Shown piece after piece: positions 16,275 to 24,809 of a stretch of 64,000 nucleotides of DNA (position 1 is its first letter; each line of letters begins with the position of its first letter). Both the position numbers and the translations under genes were made by a program. This DNA is from Natrialba magadii ATCC 43099 (GTDB lineage: Archaea; Halobacteriota; Halobacteria; Halobacteriales; Natrialbaceae). The stretch is from the NCBI RefSeq assembly GCF_000025625.1, contig NC_013922.1:1240001-1304000 (forward strand). The letters are read 5' to 3'. Below the pieces are notes generated by a model that worked only from the letters and a program-made list of their open reading frames with translations, did not search any database and had not been told where the DNA came from.

Positions 16275-17171
16275 ATGCAAACACACATCGTTCCGGTCGG
16301 CTTCGACTACGACCGGCTGATCGCCCCGCTCGTGCGCGATCAGATCGACGTCGACAGCGTCATCCTACTGGAGGGCGCGGTCGGCAGCGAGGCCAACGTC
16401 GAGTACTCCCGACACCTCTCGGAGAAACTCGAAACCGACTTCCGGAGCCTGCTCGGGGCCGAAACCGAACGCTTCGTCCTCGAAGACGTCTACGACTACG
16501 ACGAGGCGTTCGAGCAGGCCTACGACCTCATCACCGCCGAACTCGACGCCGGCAACGAGGTCTGGGTCAACGTCGCCGCGATGCCCCGCACCGTGAGCTT
16601 CGCGTTCGCGACGGCCGCGAACTCGCTGATGGTCGAACGCGAGGACGAACGCGAGCAGATCCACACCTACTACACGGCTCCCGAAAAGTATCTGGAGACC
16701 GAACTGGCAGAGGAGCTCCGTGAGCAGAGTCGGCTTCTCGAGGAACTCAAGAACGGCGCCGTCGAAGACGACCAGATCGACGACCGTCTCGAGAGCGCCC
16801 GCGACCTCCTCTCGGAGTTCGACGAGCGCGGCACCACGATCGGCGCGAAGGAAATCGACGGCGCGCATATCGTCGAACTTCCCGTCACCTCGTTCTCGAA
16901 CGTCAAGCCGTTCGAGGAGCTAATCCTCTACAAACTCGGTGAGGACGGCGAGTTCGACTCGGTCTCCGAACTCGCGGAGTCGCTCGCCCGCGAATTGAAC
17001 GAAGAGTACACCGACAGCTTCCGCTCGAAGGTCATCTACAACGTCGATCGCCTCGGACCGGGCGGCAAGGGGTACATCGAACGTGAGGAACACGGCAAGT
17101 CCTACCGAACCCGACTCTCCAGAATTGGCGAACTGTGGGTGCGCGCACACTCCGATTCCGAGTCAGTGTAG
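16275..17171 (+). CDS. HFX_2341/DUF6293-type regulator with CARF-like N-terminal domain and winged helix
   Basis: A 298-residue soluble protein. The N-terminal half begins THIVPVGFDYDRLIAPLVRD and contains NEVWVNVAAMPRTVSFAFATAANSLM. This Rossmann-like arrangement resembles the nucleotide-sensing domain of CARF and Csa3-like proteins. The C-terminal half (about 200-298) looks like a winged helix (LYKLGEDGEFDSVSELAESLARELNEEYTDSFRSKVIYNVDRL, then GKGYIEREEHGKSYRTRLSRIG). Haloarchaeal homologues are annotated as HFX_2341 family regulators. No CRISPR array or cas gene is present in the window, so any cyclic-nucleotide ligand and target genes are unknown. Confidence 0.8.
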   Translation: MQTHIVPVGFDYDRLIAPLVRDQIDVDSVILLEGAVGSEANVEYSRHLSEKLETDFRSLLGAETERFVLEDVYDYDEAFEQAYDLITAELDAGNEVWVNVAAMPRTVSFAFATAANSLMVEREDEREQIHTYYTAPEKYLETELAEELREQSRLLEELKNGAVEDDQIDDRLESARDLLSEFDERGTTIGAKEIDGAHIVELPVTSFSNVKPFEELILYKLGEDGEFDSVSELAESLARELNEEYTDSFRSKVIYNVDRLGPGGKGYIEREEHGKSYRTRLSRIGELWVRAHSDSESV

Positions 17172-17199: not shown

Positions 17200-17207
17200 A
17201 CTCCTTT
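17200..17207. repeat. left copy of an 8-bp target-site-like duplication (ACTCCTTT)
   Basis: ACTCCTTT directly precedes the GG end of the left IS-like terminus. The same 8 bp directly follow the right terminus at 22185-22192. Confidence 0.75.
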
Positions 17208-17510
17208 GGCTCTGTTGAAACCCTCACTACCTGACAAGAGAGGCGTGCTGAATATAGAGCATGAGTTCAGCACTGCAGTTTCGTTTGTATCACTCGGAGG
17301 TCAGAGAATTGATCATCCAGTAGAGTTGCGATATTTTGCTCTGCGTTCCCTTGCTTCGTTCGGCCGCTCGGCAAAGTGTTGATGAAAAGCACGTCGTCAC
17401 TACCCTCAACCGCTCCAAAATTGTGGCTTCGATGATCCTTAGCTCGCCTCTCGCACCTATTAGTGAAAAATGATCTATAGAGAGTCGAAGGAATAGGTTT
17501 CAACTAAGAA
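17208..17510 (+). mobile_element. left IS-end remnant of the RND island
   Basis: The terminus reads GGCTCTGTTGAAACCCTCA and is followed by a subterminal segment (CGTGCTGAATATAGAGC) that also occurs, inverted, at the right edge near 22120-22135. No transposase reading frame remains in the 342-nt gap between the CARF-like gene and the CopD-like gene. An internal GGTTTCAAC near 17496 is complementary to the terminus, so a short MITE-like form is also possible. Confidence 0.7.
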
Positions 17511-17513
17511 ATC

Positions 17514-17954
17514 CTACAACAAAGCAGCAACGATGAGCAACGCAATTGAGATCGCGCTTGCCCCAATAAACCACGGTTGCGCTGCTGTTGCTGCAGATAC
17601 TGTAGACTTCTCCGCAGAGATGTGCATGAGAGGACGAGAGCCGAAGTAGAGTACAATCGGTAAGAGAAACCACAACCCGACCATACTCAGTACGAGATGG
17701 CCTCGGTCCGTCGTTTGTAACGTTTCAGCAGTATAGAGCGTGCCCGCAAGATGGCCACCTGTGAACAGTAATAGCAGAACTGACGCGACTGTCACGTACC
17801 AAAACCGCCGAACGATTAGGGAGATCGCGTTCTCGTTGAGCGATTCGTTGCGAGCAGCCGGGATAACTGCACCTGCAATCACGAGGGTTCCGCCCGTCCA
17901 GACTGCAGCAAAGACGGTGTGTATTATCATGACGACATCGAAAGTCGTCATCAT
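17514..17954 (-). CDS. CopD-like four-helix membrane protein
   Basis: A 146-residue protein with four hydrophobic helices. The first, VMIIHTVFAAVWTGGTLVIAGAVIP, contains the His and the W-x-G-G pattern seen in CopD and related small membrane proteins. Helix two carries GGHLAGT, and the last two helices flank a short loop (SRPLMHISAEK). Members of this broad family bind heme or copper, or have unknown roles. The gene is divergent from the HTH regulator and lies within the island bounded by IS-like ends. Its A/T-richer codons set it apart from most genes in the window. Function is tentative. Confidence 0.65.
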   Translation of the reverse strand: MMTTFDVVMIIHTVFAAVWTGGTLVIAGAVIPAARNESLNENAISLIVRRFWYVTVASVLLLLFTGGHLAGTLYTAETLQTTDRGHLVLSMVGLWFLLPIVLYFGSRPLMHISAEKSTVSAATAAQPWFIGASAISIALLIVAALL

Positions 17955-18292
17955 TGTGGATCACTGCTCCGAGAATGTAGACGCCCGTGGTTGCAGTCAC
18001 CCTGGAAAATGATCGAATTGGCGGTTCTGCGTTGGTATTGGAACGTCTTTCGAGTAGCACATATTTCACTGGACATCATAATCGATGTCGAAAGGAGAAT
18101 ATAAGGAGAAGAGGAGACGTCCCAGAACGTGGGACTAGGGTGCAGTATTGGAAAGCTATTCGTCGGCGAATCTTCGACACTAGTCTAATGATATGGGAAT
18201 GGCCAAGACCTCTTTGACCTCTCAGCCGAAACGGAGAGTAACACCGGCGATCTTGCCCGCGAAGCTCCTGGGAATCCATTCACATCGAGGAA
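17955..18292. other. 338-nt divergent intergenic region inside the island
   Basis: No coding sequence is supported here. The segment is A/T-richer than the surrounding chromosome and probably contains the divergent promoters of the CopD-like and HTH genes; GAGAATATAAGG near 18101-18112 is TATA-like. A small hairpin, GTCCCAGAACGTGGGAC, lies near 18119-18135. Confidence 0.5.
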
Positions 18293-18748
18293 ATGAGTGA
18301 AGAAAACATCAACTGGAATCGGCTCTGTCTGATCCCGTCAAAGAGAAGTGAAATTGAATCGAACCATATAATGGGAGAGGAGAGTTCAAAGACGCACGAA
18401 GAGGCAGACATTTCCACAGTGTTGGAGTCGCTCGATGATAGCAAATGCCGGAAGATACTCCAGTCATTGTACGAGCCGAAATCTGCGAACACGCTGTGTG
18501 ATGAATGTGGATTCCCTAAATCGACCATGTATCGAAAGTTAGAGTTGCTTCGTGATGCTGATCTTGTCAAGGAGTATACAGAAGTTCGTCGAGATGGACC
18601 GAACGTAACCCTCTATGAACGAAATTTCACGAACATTTCGGTCGGAATCGACGAGGCTGACGAATTTACGCTCGAAATCGATCGGCCCGAAGAGAGCCCG
18701 GAAGACCGATTAGCAACGTTCTGGTCGGAGATGAAAAAAGAATCATGA
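18293..18748 (+). CDS. winged-helix transcriptional regulator (ArsR-like) of the RND island
   Basis: A 151-residue protein with a winged helix at residues about 42-105: VLESLDDSKCRKILQSLYEPKSANTLCDECGFPKSTMYRKLELLRDADLVKEYTEV. The start may be 18293 or the internal ATG at 18371 (MGEESSKTHEE), since the first 26 residues are not typical of the family. It overlaps the downstream 3-TM gene by 4 nt, and the RND gene follows about 190 nt later on the same strand, so local regulation of the exporter is likely by context. Codon use is A/T-rich. Confidence 0.75.
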   Translation: MSEENINWNRLCLIPSKRSEIESNHIMGEESSKTHEEADISTVLESLDDSKCRKILQSLYEPKSANTLCDECGFPKSTMYRKLELLRDADLVKEYTEVRRDGPNVTLYERNFTNISVGIDEADEFTLEIDRPEESPEDRLATFWSEMKKES

Positions 18749-19023
18749 TCGGTCCATTCGAACTACTGCTCGGGCTCGTCAAATTGGCTGTTCTCGTGCT
18801 TGGAGGGGCAGTCTCCGTGATGGCTTACAGAGCATACCTTCGAACGAAAATCGAGGGACTCCAGTACTTCTCGGCCGGGTTGTTGGTTATTACACTCGGG
18901 ATGTTCTTAGCTGGAGTTCTTCATCACGTTCTCGGCGTGTCATCAGTTGTTGGGCTTTTCATCGAGAGCTTGCTTTTCTGTGTCGGCTTCCTCATCATGA
19001 TCTTCGCGCTCTATCGGCGGTAA
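18745..19023 (+). CDS. small three-helix membrane protein (DUF7521-like)
   Basis: A 92-residue protein with three helices: LLLGLVKLAVLVLGGAVSVMAY, then GLLVITLGMFLAGVLHHVLG, then LFIESLLFCVGFLIMIFALY. The linker YRAYLRTKIEGLQYFSAG is characteristic of a haloarchaeal family that is typically encoded right after a winged-helix regulator, as here (4-nt overlap). It may sense membrane state for the paired regulator; this is inference. Confidence 0.72.
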   Translation: MIGPFELLLGLVKLAVLVLGGAVSVMAYRAYLRTKIEGLQYFSAGLLVITLGMFLAGVLHHVLGVSSVVGLFIESLLFCVGFLIMIFALYRR

Positions 19024-19211
19024 CTTCTACCCGTTAATGGGCGCACTGGCGCTTCAAATTCTGTCTGTAGTTGTCCCAGATGTTGGGACGCCACCATCAC
19101 CCCATATCAATTCCTCCCTGAGAAGCAAGTAATGCGTACTCGCCAGACAATTGCTGCGCTACCAGTACGGCCTGTGGACCTTCTCACAAGATCGGAGGTT
19201 GGAGATCCGCG

Positions 19212-21779
19212 ATGAACGGAGACATTTCAACCCGGTACGCGAATGCGATCGTCTCGCGGAGCAAATTGGTAATCGTCCTCGTCCTCGTACTGACAGCCGC
19301 TGTCACAGCAGGAGCCGTCATTGGTGATCCAGCAGACGATGATGTGAATCAATTCGAGGTCGATTCCGCTGAGACAGACGCCCAGGAAGTAATCGAAGAA
19401 CAGTACGGTACGGACGAGCAGATGGTCACGCAGATCGTCGTCCGTGATTCGAACGGTGACGTACTCACCCAAGATTCACTTCTTAAGAGTTTGCAGTTCC
19501 AACAGGAAATCTCCGATGAGGAGTCGATACACACGACACTTTCCGAGGATGGAATCGTTGGAATAGAGAACGTCGTTGCCACGGCTGCAGTGTTCGAAGA
19601 CCGAGCCGCGAGTGGCGATGGACAGTTCGAGACCAGTTCGCCGACCCTCGACGAGCAAATCGATTCGCTCGCGTCTCGTTCTGAATCGGAGTTCACCGAC
19701 CTGTTGGAAACGGTCCTCGATCCAGATGGGGATTTCCATGGAGAGGACCCTGCAGAATTCCTTCCAACATCGTACGAGCCCGGTTCGACTGAAGCCGATT
19801 CTCGAATCACGTTCGTCTTCCACAGTGACGATGCCGGTTCCGACGAGGAACCAGCGGCGGTCTTCGACGCACAACTCGAAATCGAATCGTTGTTCGAGGC
19901 GTTCTTCGACGACGGGTTCGTCTTCGGGGAGGGGATTACTGACGCGGCAAGTGCGAGCGCTATCGGAGATAGTTTCACGCTCATCACCCCTGTTGCACTC
20001 GTCCTCATTCTGTTTGTTCTCGCGGTAACGTATCGCGATGTCGTTGACGTGTTGATCGGACTGTTCGGTATTGGAACGGTGATGGCCTGGATCGTGGGGC
20101 TTCAGGGGTGGCTCGAAATTCCGATGGATTCGATGTTGATCGCCGTCCCATTTCTCTTAGTTGGCCTCTCGATCGACTATTCACTCCACGTCGTGATGAG
20201 ATACCGGGAGGCGAGAGAAGGTTCGCTAACCGAACCAGTAGCCGACGAAACAAACGGTGGATGGCAATCCCCTCGGGCTGGCATGGGCCTCGGTCTCGCT
20301 GGCGTCGTCCTCGCACTCGCAGCTGCGACGGTGTCAACAGGAATCGGCTTCCTCTCGAACGTACTCAGTCCACTTCCCGCAATTCAGAACTTTGCACTCC
20401 TCAGCGCGGGTGGGATCCTCGCAACGTTCGTCGCGTTCGGCGTCCTGATCCCTGCGATAAAGGTCGAAGTTGACGAGTTGCTCGAAACCAGATTTGGCCG
20501 AAACCGAGCCAAAGAGCCCTTCGGAACGGGAACTGGCATCGTCAATAGGGTCCTCCTCAACGGCGTGAGTCTCGTCAGGAAGGCACCTGTCGTTGTCATT
20601 CTCGTCGCATTGGTACTCGCTGTTGGCGGCGCATACGGTGCGACGGGGCTCGATACTGAGTTCAACCAGGCCGACTTCCTGCCTGAAGACGCTCCTGACT
20701 GGACACAGTCTCTCCCAGGTCCACTCGCTCCAGACACGTACACGATTTCAGAGGACGTCGCGTATCTGGGAGAGAACTTCCAGGATCGCGGGCCAAATTC
20801 ACAAGCACAGATATTGCTAACAGGCAATATAACGGATCCATCGACACTCGTCGCTATCGAGAACGCGTCACAGAACGTCAGCGGAACGAGTACGATTGAT
20901 GTCGGCGCAGACGGAACAGTTGCAGTAGAGGGACCTACTTCGGTACTGCAAACGGTCGCAAGTGAGAACGAGTCTGTGGCAGCCGCTCTGGACGAACGGG
21001 ACACTACTGGTGATGGCCTCCCGAATGAAGATGTCGAAGGCCTCTACGATGTCGTATACGATGTCGCTCCTGACGAGGCAGCGTCGGTACTTCATCGAAC
21101 GGCGGATGGCGAGTACGAATCGGCTCGGCTCATCGTCTCAGTTCGTGGTGATGCGGCTTCGCAGGATATTGCTGCGGACGTGAACAGCCTCGGTGACGAG
21201 ATAGAAACGAGTGCCTCTGTGTCGGCCGTTGCAACCGGTGGTCCCGTCACTACAGCAGTCGTTCAAGACGCACTCCTCGAAACACTCATCCCGGCATTTA
21301 CCACGACTGTCGTCGTGATTCTGGTGTTCCTCACGATCCTCTACTGGGTTCGACATAGAGAGCTCACCCTCGGTGCGATCACGCTTGCACCCGTTGTCGC
21401 GGCGCTGGCGTGGTTACTCGGAGCGATGGCACTCCTCGATGTACCCTTCAACACTGAGACGATAGTAATGACGAGTCTCGCTATTGGACTCGGAGTAGAC
21501 TACAGCATTCACGTCGGGGAACGGTTTATCGCTGAACGGCAACGACAATCCTCACTGGAGGAGGCGTTGACGAGGACTGTCGTCGGAACTGGTGGGGCAC
21601 TACTCGGAAGTGCAGCGACAACAGCCGCTGGGTTCGGTGTGCTCGCACTCGCACTTTCACCGCCACTCCAGCGATTCGGGATCGTTACTGGCCTCAGTAT
21701 CATGTTTGCGTTCGTCGCGTGCTTGACAGTGTTACCATGTCTCCTACTCGTTCGAGAGCGGCTGATCGAGTGGTTCTGA
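19212..21779 (+). CDS. RND superfamily (MMPL-type) exporter, island copy
   Basis: An 855-residue protein with the RND layout. There is one helix at residues 18-38, a large external domain (about 40-250) and five helices. These are followed by a second copy of the same pattern, with an external domain at about 440-690 and C-terminal helices. Both halves keep the sterol-sensing-like motif: LVGLSIDYSLHVVMRYRE in the first half and LAIGLGVDYSIHVGERF in the second, whose Asp residues relay protons. Family members export lipids, pigments or drugs. The protein is clearly homologous along its full length to the resident exporter at 22221-24809, but its codons are much A/T-richer, pointing to acquisition from another haloarchaeon. 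Confidence 0.93.
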   Translation: MNGDISTRYANAIVSRSKLVIVLVLVLTAAVTAGAVIGDPADDDVNQFEVDSAETDAQEVIEEQYGTDEQMVTQIVVRDSNGDVLTQDSLLKSLQFQQEISDEESIHTTLSEDGIVGIENVVATAAVFEDRAASGDGQFETSSPTLDEQIDSLASRSESEFTDLLETVLDPDGDFHGEDPAEFLPTSYEPGSTEADSRITFVFHSDDAGSDEEPAAVFDAQLEIESLFEAFFDDGFVFGEGITDAASASAIGDSFTLITPVALVLILFVLAVTYRDVVDVLIGLFGIGTVMAWIVGLQGWLEIPMDSMLIAVPFLLVGLSIDYSLHVVMRYREAREGSLTEPVADETNGGWQSPRAGMGLGLAGVVLALAAATVSTGIGFLSNVLSPLPAIQNFALLSAGGILATFVAFGVLIPAIKVEVDELLETRFGRNRAKEPFGTGTGIVNRVLLNGVSLVRKAPVVVILVALVLAVGGAYGATGLDTEFNQADFLPEDAPDWTQSLPGPLAPDTYTISEDVAYLGENFQDRGPNSQAQILLTGNITDPSTLVAIENASQNVSGTSTIDVGADGTVAVEGPTSVLQTVASENESVAAALDERDTTGDGLPNEDVEGLYDVVYDVAPDEAASVLHRTADGEYESARLIVSVRGDAASQDIAADVNSLGDEIETSASVSAVATGGPVTTAVVQDALLETLIPAFTTTVVVILVFLTILYWVRHRELTLGAITLAPVVAALAWLLGAMALLDVPFNTETIVMTSLAIGLGVDYSIHVGERFIAERQRQSSLEEALTRTVVGTGGALLGSAATTAAGFGVLALALSPPLQRFGIVTGLSIMFAFVACLTVLPCLLLVRERLIEWF

Positions 21780-22220
21780 CACGTCTTGTTGTAGTTAGGA
21801 GACGACGCACTGACGTGGTGCCACTCTACGCACTGGTGGGATTACTGAGGGCCTGTTGACTTGCCCCCTTCTTCTACTGAAATAGCCGTTGTGTAGAGCT
21901 GCAACAGTTAGCTCTGCGCTCGGTCGCTCGGCACAACGAACTTTTGCGCTGCGGGCGCGGCAGGCCGTACCTTCGGCAAAACTTCGCTGAAAAGCACTCC
22001 TTCCTCCCCTACGGTCGGTCACCGGCCAGCTCGCTCACTCTGTTCACTCGCGGTGAGTGCACAGTTCTTCTACTGTGCTGACCGATCACGCCTTCGAAGA
22101 TCGGCTCACAGTGGTACAACATTCGCGCTCTGTATTCAGCACGGCTGCTGAAACCTATCACCGATTGAGGGTTTCAACAAGGCCACTCCTTTCCTTACCC
22201 CATTATTGGTGCTCTCACAC
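21780..22220. other. right IS-end remnant and gap between convergent RND genes
   Basis: About 440 nt without a supported gene. From about 21848 the sequence resembles a non-autonomous element with terminal GGCCTGTTGAC on the left and GTTTCAACAAGGCC on the right (ending at 22184). Inside are a GCTGAAAAGCAC segment that also occurs near 17383 in the left remnant and the CTCGCTCACTCTGTTCACTCGC motif common in haloarchaeal intergenic repeats. The island ends here. Confidence 0.6.
22185..22192. repeat. right copy of the 8-bp target-site-like duplication (ACTCCTTT)
   Basis: ACTCCTTT directly follows the right IS-like terminus, matching the octamer at 17200-17207. Confidence 0.75.
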
Positions 22221-24809
22221 TCACACTCGCTCCAGCACCCGCTCTCGCAACACCAGCAGACACGGCAACACCGTGAGACACGCGACGAACGCGAAGATGA
22301 TGCTCACACCGGTCACGATCCCGAACCGCTGTAGCGGCGGGGCCAGCGCCAGCGCGAGCACACCGAATCCCGCCGCCGTCGTGAGCGCACTTCCAAGCAG
22401 CGCGCCACCCGTCCCCGTCACCGTCGCAGCGAGAGCGGACTCGAGTGTCGGCTGCTGGTCGCGTTCGGCGACGAAGCGCTCGCCGACGTGGATGCTGTAG
22501 TCGACGCCGAGTCCGATCGCGAGGCTAGTGATAACTGCTGTCTCGCTGTTGAACGGAATATCGAGGACAGCCATCGCTCCCAGAAGCCACGCGAGCGCAG
22601 CGACGACCGGCGCGAGCGTGATCGCGCCGAGTGAGAGCGCCCGATGGCGAACCCAGTACAGGATCGTCAAGAAGACGAGAATGACGACCAGCGTGACGGC
22701 GAACGCCTGGACGAGCGTCTCGAGGAGCGCGTCCTGGACGACGGCGGTCGTCACCGGGCCACCGGTCGCGATTGCCGTACTCGGGGACTGAGATTCGATT
22801 ACGCTGGCGACGCCGCGCGTGTCGTCGGCGATATCCTGCGCGGCGGCATCGCCGCGAACGCTCGCGAGTAGCCGTGCCGAATCGTACTCGCCGTCGTCAG
22901 TTCGGGAGAGCACTGACGAGACGGCCTCTTCGTCGGCCTCGTACAGCACGTCGTAAAAGCCGGCGACGTCCTCGTCTGGAAGGTCGTTCCCGCTCGTGTC
23001 TCGCTCGTCGAGTTCGGCGGCGACGGTGTCGTTCTCCGCTGCGAGGTCGTCGATAACCGAGACAGGACTGTCGATTGCGGCGGTGCCGTCCGCCTGGACC
23101 GTGATCGTGCTGTTCTCCTCGATATCGCTGGTCGCGTTCTCGATGGCGGTCAGCGTTGCTGGATCAGCCGGTGAGTCACGTATCAGTATCTGGCTCTGGC
23201 TGTCTGGCCCCTGTTCCTGGAAGTTCTCGCCGAGATACTCCGCTTCGGCACTGATCGTGTACGTATCGGGTGCGAGCGGCCCGGGGAGCGACTTGGCCCA
23301 CTCCGGCGCATCCTCCGGCAGGAAGTCGGCCTCGTTGAACTCGGTGTCGATCCCCGTGGCTCCGTACGCACCGCCAATGGCCAACACGAGCGCGAGCAGA
23401 ACGATGACGACCGGTGCCCGCTGGACGAGTTCGACGACTCCTGACAGACCGCGGTTGACCGGCCCCGTTCCCCGGCCGAAGGGCTGCTTGCGGCGGTCAC
23501 GACTGAAGCGGTTCTCGAGTAGGTCGTCGACTTCGACTTTCAGCGCAGGGATGAAAACGGCGAAGGCGACGAACGTCGCGAGAATGCCACCCGCGCTCAG
23601 GATCGCGAAGTCCTGAATCGCCGGCAGCGGACTGACGACGTTCGAGAGGAAACCGACCCCGGTCGAGAACGTGGTCGCGGCGAGGGCAAGCACGACGCTC
23701 GCGAGACCGAACTGCATCCCCGGTCTGACGCCTGCCGCGGGAGTTTCCCCATCGGTGTCCGCTGAACGGTGCGCAGCCTGCCCCGTCTCGAGTTGTCCCG
23801 TTCTCGCCTCCCGTGAGCGCATCACGACGTGTAACGAGTAGTCGATCGAGAGCCCGATCAACAGGAACGGAACGGCGATCAGCAACTGACTCATCGGGAT
23901 TTCGAGCCAGCCCATGAGGCCGCCGAGCCAGCCCATGACGACGGCGATACCGGCGATGCCGAGCAGCACGTCGACGACGTCCCTGTAGGCCGTCCCGAGC
24001 GCGAACAGCACGAGGACGAGCGCGACGGGCGTGATGATCGCGAAACTGTCACCGACCGCGTTCGACGACGCCTCGTCAGTGACACCCTGTCCGAAGAGGA
24101 ACGCATCGTCGAATCGGTCGTCGACGAGATCGGCGATCTCGACCTGCGCGTCGTAGGCTGCCTGTGGCTCGTCGTCAGGGCCGCTGTCGTCTATCTGGAA
24201 GACAAATCCGATCCGGGACTCGGCGTCAGTCGACCCCGGTTCGTACTCCGTCGGCAGGAACTCGTATGGATCCTCACCCTGCGTCTGGTCGCTGTCCGGA
24301 TCGAGCACGTCCGCGAGCAATGCCTCCACCTCGTCGTCCGACCGGGACTCGAGTGCATCGAGTTGTTCCTCGAGGGTGGGCGCGCTCGTGTCCGGTGGCC
24401 CGTTCGCCTCGGCGGCGCGGTCCTCGAAGACGGCACCGGTTGCAACGATGTTTTCGAGGGTGACGAAGCCCTGGTCATTCAGTGTTGCGTTGAGCGATTC
24501 GTTCTCCTGCACATCCTGTTGGAGACGTAGCCCCTCCAGCAGCGAGTCGCGGGTGAGGACGTCTCCGCCCTCATCGCGGACGACAAGCTGAGCGACGACG
24601 CCGTCGTCAGTCTCGTACGTTTCGTCAATCTCCTCGAGTGCGGCCGTTTCCTCGGAGTCGGTTTCGAACTGACCGATGCCGCCGTCTTCTGTCTCCCCGA
24701 TCGCAGCCCCGGCTGCGATGACGGCTGTGAGCACCAGCACGAGGACGACGACGAGTCGGCTGTGATCGACGATCGTCTCGGCGTATCGAGAGGAGAGTCC
24801 GCCGCTCAT
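22221..24809 (-). CDS. RND superfamily (MMPL-type) exporter, resident copy
   Basis: An 862-residue paralogue of the island exporter, with the same two-half topology and the motifs LIGLSIDYSLHVVMRSRE and LAIGLGVDYSIHVGERF. Long stretches of the membrane domain match the island copy almost residue for residue (for instance TILYWVRHR and GAITLAPVVAALAWLLGAM). The external loops differ more, e.g. an insertion with ETGQAAHRSADTDG after helix 4. Its codons are G/C-rich like the rest of the chromosome. It faces the island copy tail to tail across the IS remnant and has no linked regulator. Confidence 0.93.
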   Translation of the reverse strand: MSGGLSSRYAETIVDHSRLVVVLVLVLTAVIAAGAAIGETEDGGIGQFETDSEETAALEEIDETYETDDGVVAQLVVRDEGGDVLTRDSLLEGLRLQQDVQENESLNATLNDQGFVTLENIVATGAVFEDRAAEANGPPDTSAPTLEEQLDALESRSDDEVEALLADVLDPDSDQTQGEDPYEFLPTEYEPGSTDAESRIGFVFQIDDSGPDDEPQAAYDAQVEIADLVDDRFDDAFLFGQGVTDEASSNAVGDSFAIITPVALVLVLFALGTAYRDVVDVLLGIAGIAVVMGWLGGLMGWLEIPMSQLLIAVPFLLIGLSIDYSLHVVMRSREARTGQLETGQAAHRSADTDGETPAAGVRPGMQFGLASVVLALAATTFSTGVGFLSNVVSPLPAIQDFAILSAGGILATFVAFAVFIPALKVEVDDLLENRFSRDRRKQPFGRGTGPVNRGLSGVVELVQRAPVVIVLLALVLAIGGAYGATGIDTEFNEADFLPEDAPEWAKSLPGPLAPDTYTISAEAEYLGENFQEQGPDSQSQILIRDSPADPATLTAIENATSDIEENSTITVQADGTAAIDSPVSVIDDLAAENDTVAAELDERDTSGNDLPDEDVAGFYDVLYEADEEAVSSVLSRTDDGEYDSARLLASVRGDAAAQDIADDTRGVASVIESQSPSTAIATGGPVTTAVVQDALLETLVQAFAVTLVVILVFLTILYWVRHRALSLGAITLAPVVAALAWLLGAMAVLDIPFNSETAVITSLAIGLGVDYSIHVGERFVAERDQQPTLESALAATVTGTGGALLGSALTTAAGFGVLALALAPPLQRFGIVTGVSIIFAFVACLTVLPCLLVLRERVLERV

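Follow-up and report, generated by a model that had tools for sequence, protein, structure and literature searches.

How did an exporter of the RND type, with a regulator of its own, come to lie between two host genes of the haloarchaeon Natrialba magadii ATCC 43099, framed by inverted ends and a duplicated octamer and with no transposase gene between them? The locus belongs to the 64-kb stretch analyzed here (the window, C1:1240001-1304000 of the 4,443,643-bp genome; positions without a contig name are those of the window), and a first-pass annotation, made from the letters alone, had read it as a compound transposon. The data point with high confidence to a different vehicle: the island is very probably a mobile insertion cassette (MIC) that relied on transposases of the IS5 type of insertion sequence (IS), presumably acting in trans, with a foreign module of CopD-like, helix-turn-helix (HTH), DUF7521, and RND genes as its contents.

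Structure of the island and its ends

The island is a 4,977-bp unit (17208-22184) bounded by inverted ends and, directly outside them, by a perfect duplication of ACTCCTTT, whose left copy (17200-17207) is identical to the right copy (22185-22192). Both copies and the tips, GGCTCTGTTGAAACCCTCA at 17208 on the forward strand and GGCCTTGTTGAAACCCTCA at 22184 on the reverse strand, can be read directly; the tips are identical at 17 of 19 positions, in agreement with the two differences described in the first-pass annotation. A subterminal pair, CGTGCTGAATA, is present at both ends at unequal distances from the tips. Its element TGCTGAATA lies 38 bp from the left tip (17246-17254) and 43 bp from the right tip (complement of 22133-22141), so the ends are not mirror copies of one another. 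The left end (17208-17272, forward strand) and the right end (22120-22184, reverse strand) accordingly fall into different classes, class 38 and class 43, and each boundary of the island consists of one such end. No transposase gene was found inside the island, as already remarked in the first pass, and no further ends of the island type occur elsewhere in the 64-kb window. The whole is a single non-autonomous element whose two ends differ.

Composition sets the island apart from its surroundings. The earlier remark that it is richer in A and T is borne out by a GC content of 0.535 within the island as compared with 0.64 outside, and the proposed codon comparison gives the same picture, with GC at third codon positions (GC3) of 0.52-0.61 in island genes and 0.78-0.84 in the four nearest flanking genes. 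A dispersed repeat of ~150 bp lies just inside the right end (21931-22084), and a shorter stretch related to it lies inward of the left end (17334-17416). Other Natrialba genomes and genome G411 contain copies of this repeat at scattered places, at 82-84% identity, and G042 and G396 have weaker matches; as these copies lack cassette ends, a role of the repeat as a capture site is unsupported.

A family of elements with shared ends and an IS5 parentage

The two-part end pattern of the island is widespread among haloarchaea. The search of haloarchaeal genomes suggested in the first pass recovered it in 140 of 392 Halobacteriales genomes, representing 60 of 95 genera, while the same pattern read backwards had zero matches among these 392 genomes. 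In a phylum-wide sample it was found in 32 of 393 Halobacteriota genomes, all 32 of them Halobacteriales. A 71-bp right-end consensus matched 279 places in 143 plasmid records, for which the organisms listed are haloarchaea. Carriage by viruses was set aside, as a search of 2.9 million viral contigs for one version of the end pattern gave no exact match.

To pair ends, we looked, for each of 208 strong ends in 121 haloarchaeal loci and the window, for an opposite tip bordered by the same octamer, allowing at most one mismatch. This gave 54 distinct elements, as compared with 1 in a control with reversed octamers, a result beyond chance. The first-pass reading of the 8-bp repeat as a target-site duplication is upheld. 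With one added element from G042 (Halostagnicola, genus inferred), 55 elements are paired, 35 of them by perfect octamers, at sizes of 209-9,484 bp; two of the smallest pairs (209 and 215 bp) may be chance matches. The octamers show a symmetric preference (R at position 1, W at 3 and 6, Y at 8), and most transposase-less elements have one class-38 and one class-43 end. N. magadii itself holds three same-end elements with perfect octamers and small unrelated open reading frames (ORFs): C1:2171897-2172469 (573 bp, TTTCGTCC), C3:233924-234575 (652 bp, AAACCTTC), and C3:245235-245847 (613 bp, GGGTGAGT). A fourth, C1:2099461-2101386 (1,926 bp), has an octamer matching at 7 of 8 positions; the other ends in this genome have octamers that do not match, or occur as one end only.

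Contents differ almost every time among the paired elements, and no cargo family is dominant. The families represented include RND/MMPL, PHO4, a formate/nitrite transporter, an SBF symporter, glyoxalase, a Cys/Met PLP enzyme, a luciferase-like monooxygenase, acyl-CoA dehydrogenase, GST with an HxlR regulator, and pilin; TrkH with Usp, an Na/Ca exchanger, and a DNA methylase were also found, these three in end-to-end candidates without a matching octamer. Some of the cargo matches PADLOC defence models, mostly methyltransferase and CARF/Csa3-like. The added G042 element (C1:957512-957974 of that genome) is 463 bp long, has the octamer GCTTTCAC, different from that of the island, and carries a small unrelated membrane-protein ORF. 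Its first 65 bp are 97% identical to the left end of the island and its last 63 bp are 90% identical to the right end; as the same ends enclose different contents, ends and cargo have separate histories, for which this element is the clearest single case.

Several members of the family are of interest in their own right. The largest pair is a 9.5-kb candidate on a plasmid of Natronosalvus rutilus (L125:33585-43068; perfect octamer ACTCTAAC) with ~ten genes, among them TauE/SafE, HTH regulators, a peptidase, and a hydrolase. In Halomicrobium urmianum (L124:3235-4086), a TnpB-type gene is interrupted near its 3' end by the left end of a cassette; this TnpB gene was considered as a transposition partner and set aside, since it is itself interrupted by the insertion. 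At L140:3214-3245, two tips stand in tandem (GGCTCCGTTGAAATCCCGGCTCTGTTGAAACTC), an arrangement suggesting that one element may have inserted right at the end of another.

Clustering of ORFs in the 54 elements identified one widely recurrent family, an IS5 transposase (NF033579, IS5_2, and PF01609) present in eight elements, in each case beside one end; the next largest clusters have two members. Tips on the transposase side read GGCTCTGTTGAAATCCTCAG or GGCCTTGTTGAAACCCTTG. We then sampled 12 transposase copies of the ISHla2/ISHxa2 type on plasmids, 83-96% identical to the copy in N. magadii. All 12 have a tip of the GGCTCTGTTGAAA type (up to two mismatches allowed) 52 bp before the start codon, and because they begin with the same kind of tip, the cassette ends are assigned to the ISHla2/ISHxa2 group of the IS5 family. 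Nine of the 12 could be paired with a second tip through a perfect 8-bp repeat, at spans of 1,166-3,325 bp; of the remaining three, one has octamers offset by one base and two are unpaired. All paired transposase-bearing elements have extra DNA between the transposase and the right end, with passengers such as an RDD-family protein (ISHxa2, Halopiger), a PAS protein (Haloplanus), and TrkA-C with a formate/nitrite transporter (Halorussus). The class-43 right end of the cassettes, including that of the island, is also borne by the transposase-bearing elements of Haloplanus and Halorussus. Elements with the same tips therefore encode both a transposase and passengers, and the parent of the cassettes is an IS5 group whose members carry passengers.

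Weighing the origin of the island

Taken together, the island has inverted ends with tips common to ISHla2-type IS5 elements, passenger genes in place of a transposase, and an 8-bp target duplication like that of 9 of the 12 transposase-bearing elements; its terminal sequence is GGCTCTGTTGAAATCCT-like and its duplication perfect, as in the ISHla2/ISHxa2 group. The island lacks the IS5-type DDE transposase (NF033579) that relatives with these tips encode; it derives from the IS5 group without being an IS5 element itself. To judge from these sequence features, the cassette, comprising left end, passenger genes, and right end, was inserted as one piece, with duplication of 8 bp. An ISHla2/ISHxa2-type transposase would have bound both ends in trans, excised or copied the cassette, and inserted it at a target cut with an 8-bp stagger. 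A candidate helper exists in the same genome, a 1,471-bp element with an intact 273-aa transposase and a small membrane-protein-like ORF, present on C1 in two copies (~806 kb and ~1,209 kb) that differ by one base. These two copies (L236:901-2371 and L230:1431-2901) are inverted relative to one another and have exchanged their outer octamers, ATTCGATA and TTATAACC, an exchange that points to recombination between the copies with inversion of ~400 kb of the chromosome.

Four observations count against a MIC origin. Movement itself was not observed. The exact pre-insertion sequence was not found among the three congeners that lack the island at this place, because their spacers are too diverged to align a single ACTCCTTT. 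The tips of the island match the two ends of the local helper at 17 of 19 (left) and 15 of 19 (right) positions, and the subterminal sequences differ; the mover may therefore have been another ISHla2-type copy. Finally, 133 of the 208 strong ends have no partner in the stretch fetched, and part of the family is therefore decayed, longer than that stretch, or reduced to single ends.

The alternative that survives best, though improbable, is that an autonomous, passenger-carrying IS5 element inserted here and then decayed in place, its transposase gene being lost. Since all paired transposase-bearing elements with these tips carry passenger DNA, only one gene need disappear for a cassette to result. 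The island, however, does not have a left end of the transposase-side kind: TGCTGAATA stands at 38 bp, as it does in many elements without a transposase, and neither of the segments of transposase-side ends, GAGTTACAGG or GCTGACAAACA, is present. That the transposase-less G042 element has this left end too largely refutes decay in place and indicates that the cassette was already without a transposase when it spread.

The compound transposon of the first-pass annotation, in which two separate copies of an IS or of a miniature inverted-repeat transposable element (MITE) flank the genes and moved them together, is very unlikely. It would account for the inverted ends to the left and right and for the 8-bp repeat that encloses them, but a complete IS or MITE is missing from both boundaries; each side has one end, inward of which none of the opposite class follows, and the pairing of class 38 with class 43 is that of most single small elements. 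What stands of that earlier claim is movement as one unit that carries an exporter with its own regulator.

Even less credible is a cassette with IS6-family ends moved by an IS6 transposase, despite a tip (GGCTCTGTTG) that resembles the IS6 consensus (PMC7986276), a duplication of 8 bp, and IS6-type genes in the N. magadii genome: the local IS6 copies bear different tips (GGCACTGTCTAG), their protein has no match in any paired element, and the cassette tip is borne by IS5 transposases, IS5 being the transposase between such ends. Neither haloarchaeal IS6 tips, nor an IS6 transposase, nor the directly repeated IS copies of a pseudo-compound element were found at the island, which has single inverted ends only. 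An IS1595/ISH4 origin was rejected, as three local IS1595 copies end in CGCTCTTNTGTAG, unlike the island.

Cargo, insertion site, and place among mobile elements

The contents of the MIC form a complete regulated module, and Pfam matches agree with the genes named in the first pass. On the reverse strand, a CopD-like membrane protein of 146 aa (17514-17954; PF05425, a weak match at E 8.9e-5, below the cut-off) diverges from the other three genes, all on the forward strand. These encode an HTH_20/ArsR-like regulator of 151 aa (18293-18748; PF12840), a DUF7521 small membrane protein of 92 aa (18745-19023; PF24365, 1e-24) that overlaps the regulator gene by 4 bp, and an RND (MMPL/HAE3-type) exporter of 855 aa (19212-21779). 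G411 has the same order, a CopD-like gene facing HTH-DUF7521-RND, with identities of 69, 75, 80, and 74%, and the CopD-like gene is kept beside HTH-DUF7521-RND at loci L319, L323, L326, L328, and L330. Congeners have HTH-DUF7521-RND at another locus, at 54-65% identity, and an HTH search found no second copy in N. magadii. An RND tree of 53 rows places the island and G411 proteins as sisters (support 99/97) and attaches the congener copies next (100/100); the resident RND of the flank falls in another clade, which rules out the island RND as a duplicate of that gene. Vertical inheritance with the flanking genes, which the first pass had named as fatal to transposition, is likewise contradicted by the tree. 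Given the tree, the GC3 values, the G411 module, and the lack of a second copy, the module is foreign to this locus and probably to the species; it derives from a lineage near G411 rather than through the Natrialba line together with the flanks. As no transposon ends were found near the module in G411 and several other family members, the ends were acquired around pre-existing genes; a passenger-carrying IS may, for instance, have come to use a right end beyond neighbouring genes and then lost its transposase side.

The insertion lies in the spacer of two convergent genes, 28 bp beyond each stop codon, and hence broke no gene. Upstream is an HFX_2341-family regulator (16275-17171, forward strand; NF051475, E 4e-172), and on the other side the resident RND exporter (22221-24809, reverse strand), 66% identical in amino acids to the island RND. 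The two genes adjoin without the island in three congeners (G002, G004, and G005). The resident RND gene is itself variable: of six congeners, three (G001, G003, and G006) lack it beside the HFX_2341 gene. Landing beside a related RND gene may reflect either chance or retention by selection. The island probably gives its host an extra, self-regulated export system, judging from its gene content.

MICs are known from bacteria, with IS-type inverted ends, a target duplication, and a passenger in place of the transposase in MIC231 of the Bacillus cereus group and in mic-qnrD and mic-qnrS2; MIC231A1 is described as moved in trans by the IS231A transposase (PMC3913671). The island shares the ends, the duplication, and the passenger; it differs in belonging to IS5 rather than IS231, in its archaeal host, in ends that are consistently different in structure, in a cargo of several genes (up to 9.5 kb in the family), and in a family that spans an order. 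From the haloarchaeal ISHla2/ISHxa2 group, which shares its tip, 8-bp duplication, and passenger DNA between transposase and right end, it differs in encoding no transposase and in a left end that departs beyond the tip. Haloarchaeal MITEs are short and non-autonomous, and several relatives of the island (463-652 bp, with one small ORF or none) resemble them; the island, at 4,977 bp, carries a whole gene module. Unrelated genes pooled behind common recombination sequences and moved in trans also recall integron gene cassettes and TIME-COMPs. Integron cassettes rely on a tyrosine integrase and attC sites, neither of which was seen in the island. Nor were two complete TIMEs, such as bound TIME-COMPs (PMC13367494).

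A passenger gene on a haloarchaeal transposon has been mentioned (PMC10544981), and archaeal entries in a MITE review are brief only (PMC10969869). We found no description of MICs in haloarchaea in the open literature, subscription journals and ISfinder lying outside this search; archaeal cassettes of this kind thus appear undescribed so far, MICs themselves being already known from bacteria. The N. magadii genome paper (PMC3403918) gave a figure of ~36 transposase genes and regarded the genome as minimally affected; such a count would miss cassettes, because they carry no transposase.

Whether the family amounts to an order-wide haloarchaeal economy of gene cassettes, in which compatible IS5 ends served in trans by passenger-carrying ISHla2-type transposases package and spread unrelated genes and entire regulated operons, is a broader proposal that we advance tentatively. 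If true, such an economy would spread exporters, transporters for phosphate, potassium, and formate, enzymes, and methyltransferases among chromosomes and megaplasmids, and would be functionally similar to integron cassettes yet based on a DDE transposase. Gene transfer among haloarchaea is frequent, and the route by which single genes and small operons travel is mostly unexplained. Transposase-less cassettes with recognizable ends and 8-bp scars would offer a concrete, searchable vehicle for it, to which many haloarchaeal "islands" may be traceable.

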